DNA of 64,000 nt from Chloroflexota bacterium (lineage in GTDB: Bacteria > Chloroflexota > Dehalococcoidia > Lucifugimonadales > JADFKI01), in NCBI GenBank assembly GCA_009840355.1, contig VXNZ01000003.1, positions 1 through 64,000 of the forward strand, in the 5' to 3' direction. Made by a program: the position numbers and the translations under genes. Position 1 is the stretch's first letter. Each line of letters starts with the position of its first letter. Shown one piece after another: positions 2,425-6,111 of the stretch. The notes under the pieces are model-generated. The model searched no databases and had not been told where the DNA came from. It saw nothing but the letters and a program-made list of their open reading frames with translations.

Positions 2425-3138
2425 CTATCGATTCAGCAGCAGGTTGACCACTCTTGCAGTGTCTGAAAGGTCTTGAATAATGTGACTGGGATGGTGCTCG
2501 CTAAGCTCATCTGTGGTGTATTGACCGGTTGCTACCGCCAGCGTCCGCACATGATTGGCGTGGCCTGCCCGTATGTCTGATGGCGTGTCACCGACTACGA
2601 AAATTTGATCATTGGAGTAGGTACGCCCGGACCTTTCCTGACATGCGTCAATTGCACTAGTCACAACATCAGCCCTATCCATGTGCTCTCCTCCGAATCC
2701 ACCATCCTGAAAATAGGAATCCAGGCCAAATCTTCGTAACTTGATGAAGGCCGATTCTCTGAAGTTGCCAGTCTCCAGCCCCAACTGCACATTCGGCTCA
2801 GAAGCGAGCGATTCCACCAGAAGGGACGGAACGCCTTGGCAGGCATTGCCATCGGTCCACGTCTCCAGTAATTCGCCTAGATGCCTGAAGTACACTGATT
2901 TAAGATCGGACAGATCAGGCGGGGTACCCGAGCCCCCAGGTGTCAAATCCCACTTGAGGTACACCTCTTTCATAAGAGGCAAGTCCAAGCCGCCAGCAAA
3001 GGCCATCCCAGTAAACGCATGCGGGACGCCATGAACCTCCTCAAAGGCGCTGTTAAGGGCTGTAGTGCCGCAACCGGGTAGACTGACGAGCGTCTGGTCC
3101 ACATCGAATAGAATCAAAATTGGCGAGTCGGCTTCCAT
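2425..3138 (-). CDS. HAD-superfamily hydrolase (phosphoglycolate phosphatase-like)
   Basis: A 237-residue HAD enzyme with motif I FDVDQTL (D12 and D14 in place), a cap domain with two glycine-rich turns, motif II GLETGN, and motif IV GDTPSDIRAG. The overall layout resembles phosphoglycolate phosphatase/beta-phosphoglucomutase-like members, so a small phosphate ester is a plausible substrate, but this is family-level inference. The start is well supported by AAAGGGA about seven bases upstream. It lies tail to tail with another HAD gene that is clearly not a recent duplicate of it, since their sequences outside the motifs differ. Confidence 0.9.
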   Translation of the reverse strand: MEADSPILILFDVDQTLVSLPGCGTTALNSAFEEVHGVPHAFTGMAFAGGLDLPLMKEVYLKWDLTPGGSGTPPDLSDLKSVYFRHLGELLETWTDGNACQGVPSLLVESLASEPNVQLGLETGNFRESAFIKLRRFGLDSYFQDGGFGGEHMDRADVVTSAIDACQERSGRTYSNDQIFVVGDTPSDIRAGHANHVRTLAVATGQYTTDELSEHHPSHIIQDLSDTARVVNLLLNR

Positions 3139-3962: not shown

Positions 3963-4442
3963 ATGACTACTGATATACCTCACGAAGTACATGGAGACGA
4001 TCTTCCACTCGGCGTTTCGCACCGCACCCTCGCGATTGACTGCGAGCATGTCGAGAAGATGCTCCACAAGGGCACTCGCGAGCACTTCGTCATCTACTGC
4101 GACGAGCCGGAGCGTATGGGCGGTGAGGATGCCTATCCGCGGCCATTGACATACATCACATCCGGCATCGGCTTCTGACTGTTCACCCAGTTGAAGCGAT
4201 ACGCTACAATGAGAAAAATCGTTATCGACAGAGCGCGCGTCCACGTCGAGATGGACTACTACTTGGCCGGCTCTGTACTGGTGGGAACGGTGCACAGTGG
4301 CGTAACTGAGGTGCTGTCCGAGTTCGAGGTCACCGCCGATGCGGACGAGGAAGACATAGCCTATGGCATCAGGCTTGCGAAGCGGGGCAGTTTTGCCGAG
4401 AGATTGGTTGAAACGGCGGTGCCCATCAAGGGCACCCTTTGA
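3963..4442 (+). CDS. OsmC-family protein, candidate selenoprotein (in-frame UGA at 4176-4178)
   Basis: OsmC/Ohr-like proteins reduce peroxides through a reactive cysteine. Residues 1-71 (ending YPRPLTYITSGIGF) run into a TGA at 4176-4178. The same frame continues without a shift (LFTQLKRYATMRKIVIDRARV) for another 87 codons with normal OsmC features. The TGA falls where the family has its catalytic Cys, so the likely reading is selenocysteine 72 in a 159-residue protein. OsmC-like selenoproteins are a reported family. A candidate SECIS hairpin follows at 4190-4210. The usual second, C-terminal Cys is replaced (TAVPIKG). The start has AGGTGAG five bases upstream. Beyond the stop at 4440-4442 the frame still looks coding (LNGKEATNLLED) up to a TGA at 4476-4478, just before the NHL gene. 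The alternative is a pseudogene with nonsense codons. Confidence 0.75.
4190..4210 (+). promoter_or_regulatory. Candidate bacterial SECIS hairpin in the OsmC gene
   Basis: The RNA can fold as GUUG-A-AGCG-AUA-CGCU-A-CAAU. That gives four pairs plus four pairs around an A/A mismatch, with an AUA loop (or GAUAC if the last pair opens). The apical loop begins 20 nt after the UGA at 4176-4178, inside the distance range known for bacterial SECIS elements recognised by SelB. Folding was done by eye. Confidence 0.5.
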
Positions 4443-4483
4443 TTGAATGGCAAAGAGGCGACGAACCTACTGGAGGATTGATT

Positions 4484-5365
4484 ATGGCGACAGCAACCGT
4501 GGGCACAGACAAACTCACTTATGAACTCGCTCAGGACTTCCCGAAACTTCCGGACGGCGAAGATTTCGCGGTAGTCAGCACTGTGGCCACCGATTCACAG
4601 AACAATCTCTACGTCTTCCAGCGGAAAGACCCGCCCGTCGTCGTCTTCGACAGCAACGGCAACTACTTGAACGCCTGGGGGCATGGCGCGTTCAACTCGC
4701 CGCACGGCATGAGCATCAACGGCGATGTCGTCTATCTGACTGACCGCGATGACTCCGTCGCTGTGGCATTCACGCTGGAGGGCAGCCCTCTCATGGTGCT
4801 TGGAGAGCGCGGTGTTCACTCCGACACGGGCTGCGAAAAGCCGGGTGACCTGGTCCCTCGCGCCGCCGGTCCGTTCAACTACCCGACCGAGATTGTGAAG
4901 GGCCCGTCCGGCAGTATCTATGTTGCTGACGGCTATCGGAACAGCAGGATTCACAAGTTCACGGATGGGGGCGAACTCGTCAACTCATGGGGAACTCCGG
5001 GAAGTTCGGAGCCGGGCGAGTTCCACCTGCCGCATAGCCTGATGGTCGATGATGATGAAAAGGTCTATGTATGCGACCGGACCAACCGCCGCATCCAGAT
5101 TTTCGACAGCGAAGGCGAGTTCATCACCGAGTGGACCGGCATGGGCGGGCCTAACGACATCGCGCAAGGCGCGGATGGCTTGTTCTACATCTGCGAGCAG
5201 GAGGCTGACGGCAACCCTCCGTATGTTACTATCCGCGATGGTGAAGGCGAAGTGCTGGCGCGCTGGGGAATACGACACGCTCATGGGATATGGGTGGACT
5301 CGCGGGGCGACATCTATGTCGGCCTGACGACGAGCCAGAGCGTGGACAAGTACGTGCGCGTGTGA
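4484..5365 (+). CDS. NHL-repeat beta-propeller protein
   Basis: A 293-residue protein built of about six NHL-type blades, each with a pattern such as GSIYVADGYRNSRIHKF or EKVYVCDRTNRRIQIF. It starts at the ATG at 4484, which has TGGAGG nine bases upstream; an earlier in-frame ATG at 4439 overlaps the OsmC frame and has no such site. There is no signal peptide, so it is probably cytoplasmic. NHL propellers include peptidyl-alpha-hydroxyglycine lyase-like enzymes and lactonase-like proteins, but no catalytic set is obvious here. It sits between the OsmC-family gene and a RidA-like gene on the same strand, probably as one transcription unit. Confidence 0.8.
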   Translation: MATATVGTDKLTYELAQDFPKLPDGEDFAVVSTVATDSQNNLYVFQRKDPPVVVFDSNGNYLNAWGHGAFNSPHGMSINGDVVYLTDRDDSVAVAFTLEGSPLMVLGERGVHSDTGCEKPGDLVPRAAGPFNYPTEIVKGPSGSIYVADGYRNSRIHKFTDGGELVNSWGTPGSSEPGEFHLPHSLMVDDDEKVYVCDRTNRRIQIFDSEGEFITEWTGMGGPNDIAQGADGLFYICEQEADGNPPYVTIRDGEGEVLARWGIRHAHGIWVDSRGDIYVGLTTSQSVDKYVRV

Positions 5366-5379
5366 GGGCAGAAGTCCCT

Positions 5380-5411
5380 TCCCCCTTGATGGGGGAAGGT
5401 TAGGATGGGGG
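5380..5411. repeat. Dispersed palindromic repeat, copy 1 (terminator-like)
   Basis: CCTTCCCCC-TTGA-TGGGGGAAGG forms a strong hairpin just after the NHL gene, followed by TTAGGATGGGG. Recognisably related copies, some inverted, occur near 49952, 51046 and 61103. It could end transcription, but the dispersed copies argue for a repeat family. Confidence 0.65.
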
Positions 5412-5448
5412 GGAATACTCCCTGAATCGAATTGGTGAGGTGTTGAGA

Positions 5449-6111
5449 ATGGGCAAGTTCTATGACGAGGCGCTGCTACCCGACGAACTGCGGCGCGGTT
5501 ACGACGTGTACGACAGGATTAGGGAGCTTGGCATCCCATTGGGCAGCTTCGATGAGGATGTCATATCATTGGAAGGCGCGGGAATAGCGGCGGCGGTCGT
5601 GCAAGAGAGCGGCCTCGTGTATCTGTCCGGCACTTCCGCCGGGACGTATCCGATGAACGACGATGCGGTGCGTATCGAGCACGGGTTTCAGGCGGCGCAG
5701 GATACGGCTGACAGGCTGATTCGCAGGCTGCACTGGACCCTGAGTTGCGGCGACGAAGGCGACCTGAACGATGTGCTGTACACCGTGAAGGCGCTGGGCA
5801 TGGTAGTTTCACCGGGCGGTGGAGCGAGCGGTGCTGCGCCTGCCGTGACCAACGGGTTCTCATTCAGGTGGCACTCGGTCTTTGGCGGACCTCGAAGCGA
5901 CTACGCGGAGGACGGCGTTGACCCGGGCGGGTTTGCCGGAATCCATGCCCGAAGCGCGATGGGCGGCTTCGATGGCAAGTTCTCCATCGAGCCGGAGATT
6001 ATCGTCGCAATCCCACCTGCGCTTGCAAGAGAGATTATCAGCAACAGGGGCTGGGTCTTCCCCCTGCCGCCCGTGATGCTGGAGAAAGTCAGGGCTGCCA
6101 AGGGTTCATGA
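5449..6111 (+). CDS. RidA/YjgF-YER057c-like protein with C-terminal extension
   Basis: A 220-residue protein started at the ATG at 5449 (GAGG about nine bases upstream; a GTG at 5440 is also in frame). Residues 30-125 carry a RidA-like fold signature: AVVQESGLVYLSGTSAG, then a helix with the spacing of the family, then DLNDVLYTVKALGMV. RidA proteins hydrolyse reactive enamine/imine intermediates. The C-terminal 90 residues (glycine-rich, HSVFGGPRSDYAEDG) are not part of the standard ~130-residue RidA and suggest a specialised member. It ends 15 bp before the convergent SDR gene. Confidence 0.7.
   Translation: MGKFYDEALLPDELRRGYDVYDRIRELGIPLGSFDEDVISLEGAGIAAAVVQESGLVYLSGTSAGTYPMNDDAVRIEHGFQAAQDTADRLIRRLHWTLSCGDEGDLNDVLYTVKALGMVVSPGGGASGAAPAVTNGFSFRWHSVFGGPRSDYAEDGVDPGGFAGIHARSAMGGFDGKFSIEPEIIVAIPPALAREIISNRGWVFPLPPVMLEKVRAAKGS

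Follow-up and report, generated by a model that had tools for sequence, protein, structure and literature searches.

A probable selenocysteine codon in an altered second copy of an OsmC-like gene from a Chloroflexota bacterium

OsmC/Ohr proteins use two cysteines, the first of which attacks the hydroperoxide while the second acts as the resolving residue. The Sargasso Sea yielded the first report of OsmC-like selenoproteins carrying a UxxT motif, in 2005 (PMC1088965); they were found again in GOS data (PMC2398784) and are also covered by recent reviews. The family is now catalogued as NF041052, in agreement with the premise of the original prediction that such selenoproteins exist. For the SECIS element of E. 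coli fdhF, a review reports that mutation of G23 abolishes UGA reading (PMC8659212). In a marine sponge study that included the SAR202 bin90, most of the symbiont bins were noted to have SelA and SelB (PMC5649159). SAR202 isolates have also been reported (PMC10444878). A full-text literature search for SAR202 together with selenocysteine returned no paper devoted to SAR202 selenoproteins.

Here, we analysed a 64,000-nucleotide stretch of a Chloroflexota genome (the window), taken from a metagenome-derived draft assembly of 3.28 Mb in 57 contigs that belongs to the Dehalococcoidia and is related to the SAR202 cluster. The OsmC gene with its codons and hairpin, and the 2.1-kb block described below, lie on the plus strand. 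The frame at 3963-4478 codes for a protein of the OsmC family (Pfam PF02566 at residues 54-156, E 1.9e-9) and matches the NCBIfam model NF041052, OsmC_like_Se 'OsmC-related (seleno)protein', with 141.4 bits against a cut-off of 95. A paralogue on contig C9 of the same genome scores 165 bits. The UxxT motif reads ULFT in the window copy and ULLT in the paralogue, and a good ribosome-binding sequence, GGTGAG, precedes the ATG of the window copy. The in-frame TGA at 4176-4178 is codon 72 and lies between GIGF and LFTQLKRYA at the position of the reactive (first) cysteine, as stated in the original prediction. The original prediction regarded this TGA as the only interruption of a full OsmC frame. 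The OsmC frame and this TGA stand, but a second in-frame TGA is present at 4440-4442 (codon 160). The reading frame proper is therefore 3963-4442, comprising 159 codons and a stop, and the codons at 4443-4478 lie beyond it. Upstream of the gene, two HAD-family hydrolase genes are arranged tail to tail (1699-2418 and 2425-3138).

The distribution of the TGA was examined across the order. Homologues of the OsmC gene were found in 85 of 250 genomes, and nearly all strong ones contain exactly one TGA. In the alignment, the TGA occupies the identical column in all 98 Sec-type rows, of which 77 are distinct sequences and some are one locus fetched twice, whereas more distant homologues without the TGA have TGC (Cys) at this column. 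Single-TGA OsmC matches also occur elsewhere in Chloroflexota, as judged by the number of TGA codons and not by their column. All four components of the selenocysteine machinery that the original prediction proposed to look for are encoded in the same genome: selA, selB, and selD with profile scores of 531, 342, and 390 bits, and a tRNA-Sec with anticodon TCA at 66 bits. According to the search listings, a strong selA match accompanies the TGA-form OsmC gene in 71 of 78 genomes, a co-occurrence of little weight because 201 of the 250 genomes pass the selA cut-off. Together with the hairpin described below, these data strongly support the view that a genuine codon for selenocysteine has been inherited at 4176-4178, in a gene belonging to the already known family of OsmC-like selenoproteins. 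The selD gene of this genome (L023 1351-2421) itself bears a TGA at its own Cys/Sec site, in the motif CAGU, as do the relatives examined. The hairpin presumed to be its SECIS element follows the TGA at about 34 nt, a greater distance than in OsmC. Other decaying OsmC selenoprotein genes were also seen, namely one with an extra TGA at a Trp codon (L082, genome G211) and one frameshifted locus of genome G239 that was fetched under three ids (L044/L071/L132).

The predicted hairpin was located at exactly 4190-4210. It has a 9-bp stem with an A.A mismatch and a 3-nt loop, AUA, at 4199-4201, which begins 20 nt past the TGA. Its folding energy corresponds to z-scores between -1.2 and -2.6 for the different stretches folded, which alone is weak evidence, so the case for a SECIS element was rested on covariation. 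Across 56 distinct sequences, the hairpin is 87% paired, compared with 69% for shuffled alignments. It reaches a covariation score of 0.439, whereas shuffling gives 0.155 and none of 500 shuffles attains the observed value; slid registers score no higher than 0.088. Stem types in the family include AGCG/CGCU, GAGAG/CUCUC, GCGCG/CGCGC, and GUCCG/CGGAC, and a second group (L106, L099, and others) has a stem shifted by one base around GGU. Identical codons are used 1.6- to 2.7-fold above expectation at codons +6 to +9 past the TGA, with most upstream codons near 1. When the window copy was left out of the covariance model, the model still recovered the window hairpin as the sole significant match in 64 kb (40.7 bits, E 5e-7; the next match has E 1.5), and the same model gave 50.1 bits for the hairpin of the C9 paralogue.

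The window copy departs from its family in three places. Codon 79, at +7 after the TGA, is the Arg codon CGA in the window copy and CGG or AGG in the 76 other distinct sequences, which changes the apical SECIS base at 4199 from G to A. As a result, guanosine is absent from the apical loop, the only G being the loop-closing base at 4198, while the stem is intact. Codon 143 (4389-4391) is AGT (Ser) in the window copy alone; the other 97 of the 98 Sec-type loci have Cys (TGC/TGT) in this column, which in the alignment corresponds to the second Cys of solved OsmC proteins such as 3CJE. Finally, the premature TGA160, found only in the window copy, trims 12 codons where homologues have Lys, Thr, Ile or other sense codons followed by a conserved LNG motif. 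The trimmed codons, LNGKEATNLLED, are still legible at 4443-4478 and match LNGKEATSLLEE of the sister gene (L046). Loss of these 12 residues may be tolerated by the protein, as the intact C9 copy is itself short at that end. Additional inactivating mutations, which the original prediction held would speak against it, were thus found in part, all private to the window copy. The missing apical G does not affect membership of the gene in the OsmC selenoprotein line of descent; it bears on whether this copy works.

Signs of selection were nevertheless retained. All residues invariant in the family alignment are kept in the window copy, and its branch dN/dS is about 0.09-0.11, compared with 0.05-0.07 in the sister, both being rough pairwise values with dS near 1. 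At sites invariant in six close relatives, the window copy carries 9 private amino-acid changes, the sister 3, and the intact paralogue 7. With dN/dS far below 1 and the invariant residues kept, the gene has not been drifting for long; purifying selection acted along most of the branch, and any decay is recent.

The paralogue on contig C9 (L014) is intact, 78% identical to the window copy, and has the TGA at the same codon. Its predicted structural model has a pLDDT of 90 and matches the OsmC structures 2OPL (E 8.5e-9) and 3CJE (E 6.1e-8). The window copy lies in a 2.1-kb block (3965-6107) that contains the OsmC gene, a gene for an NHL-repeat protein (PF01436), and a 223-aa ORF, and that is 80.8% identical by blastn to C100:15534-17630 of the sister genome G056. 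The flanks of the G056 block are colinear with C9 of the window genome, where the intact OsmC gene is present without the NHL gene. A tree places the window copy with the G056 gene at 78% support. Since the block is colinear with G056 and the flanks with C9, the window block either is a second copy that was relocated or came in by exchange. A 43-bp short interspersed repeat at 5373-5415 recurs twice on C9 with 95-98% identity (L142 5297-5339 and 17065-17106) and once in genome G059 with 93% identity (L148 8509-8551).

How the two TGA codons are to be understood was then weighed against several explanations. If the TGA at 4176 had arisen by chance, as a nonsense mutation of an OsmC gene of the Cys type, the window gene would be an ordinary pseudogene, a reading that fits its second premature stop and the frameshifted and extra-TGA members seen elsewhere. 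This origin is hardly credible: all 98 Sec-type loci in the order have TGA at this column, as does the intact paralogue, which refutes chance nonsense at codon 72, and SECIS covariation and the complete Sec machinery argue against it as well. It is just as far-fetched that UGA encodes one of the standard amino acids, through a code change or readthrough by Trp, which would account for the open frame and nothing more. Code reassignment was rejected, as many genes in related loci end in TGA, homologues without the TGA align Cys and never Trp, and the genome encodes tRNA-Sec with selA, selB, and selD. The departures of the window copy could also be sequencing or assembly errors in a metagenome assembly, with the true gene intact; the draft state of the assembly and its estimated contamination of 4.27% leave some room for this. 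We consider it improbable, because the departures are scattered across 244 bases, one codon among them is at least two substitutions away from its counterparts in close relatives, divergence in the remainder of the gene is smooth with a dN/dS of 0.1, and the window's contig (C3) resembles the other contigs in GC content and tetranucleotide pattern about as closely as they resemble one another.

The choice that carries weight is between a working and an impaired copy. A working selenoprotein would insert Sec at UGA72, end at TGA160, and use its selenol without an internal resolving Cys, perhaps with an external thiol. The low dN/dS, the retained invariant residues, the ribosome-binding sequence, and the intact stem, in a hairpin still recognised at 40.7 bits, all agree with this possibility. 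So does the apical A itself, as two of some 25 selD genes in the order have A, and one has C, at the presumed matching base, read by eye in hairpins assumed to be selD SECIS elements. If these hairpins are rightly read, the apical G may tentatively be regarded as not absolutely required in the clade. Against a working copy stand the three departures, which are independent of one another, occur in no other aligned member of the family, and in two cases affect near-invariant functional positions, as well as the intact paralogue in the same genome and the reported effect of the G23 mutation in fdhF. The larger number of private changes relative to the sister and the lower score of the hairpin relative to that of the paralogue also speak for impairment. 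We therefore regard a working copy as possible but the weaker reading, and it is rather unlikely that the window copy is specifically a functional variant Sec-OsmC without the second Cys into which Sec is inserted through a SECIS element with an apical A in place of G. An impaired, recently decaying Sec gene whose function is carried by the intact C9 copy is the more likely explanation, though not decisively so, and we assign it a rough probability of 0.57.

The following course of events would fit an impaired second copy. In intact members, SelB and tRNA-Sec would read UGA, aided by the hairpin that follows about 20 nt later. The protein made would be an OsmC-fold peroxidase, in which Sec72 is plausibly the attacking residue and Cys143 the likely resolving partner, as the intact copy suggests by analogy with known OsmC proteins. 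The window gene would represent a second copy within a relocated 2.1-kb block, held under purifying selection through most of its history, that recently lost its second Cys, its apical SECIS G, and its last 12 residues. Given these losses, the window copy is probably crippled, and the copy on C9 would carry the function. The claim of the original prediction that Sec is inserted is thus upheld as far as the nature of the codon is concerned, through the machinery, the alignment column, SECIS covariation, and synonymous constraint; it does not extend to insertion in the window copy, which has probably lost its function.

The OsmC selenoprotein family is already known and catalogued, so the surprise is modest. 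What is added is that Sec in an OsmC protein is spread across a whole SAR202-related order of Chloroflexota, and that one of its genomes has an altered duplicate of the gene as well as an intact one. The intact and the three-times-altered copy of one selenoprotein gene form a natural test pair in one genome, useful for understanding the decay of Sec genes and for learning which bases of a SECIS element are truly needed. If the A-loop variant were functional, the rule now accepted for bacterial SECIS elements would have to be relaxed.

Compared with the SECIS element of E. coli fdhF, the OsmC family has a similarly small hairpin about 20 nt past the UGA and an apical G-G-U, of which the second G and the U match G23 and U24. 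The stem sequence is different, its register is one base later, and there is no obvious U17-type bulge; in the window copy, moreover, an A replaces the G23-like base. The two-cysteine thiol peroxidases of the OsmC/Ohr type (3CJE, 2OPL, 2ONF, and 1VLA) share the fold and the position of the reactive residue, and the second Cys kept in the intact C9 copy aligns with the C of KKGCF in 3CJE. They differ in having Cys where the present proteins have the Sec codon, and the structural matches share only about 12-21% of their sequence. The gene belongs to the OsmC-like selenoproteins of NF041052. The window copy differs from them in lacking the second Cys, which is not part of the published UxxT definition, and it also has neither the G at the apex of the SECIS element nor the LNG segment at the C terminus; it shares with them the OsmC fold, the Sec codon at the first Cys column, the UxxT motif, and a downstream bacterial SECIS element.
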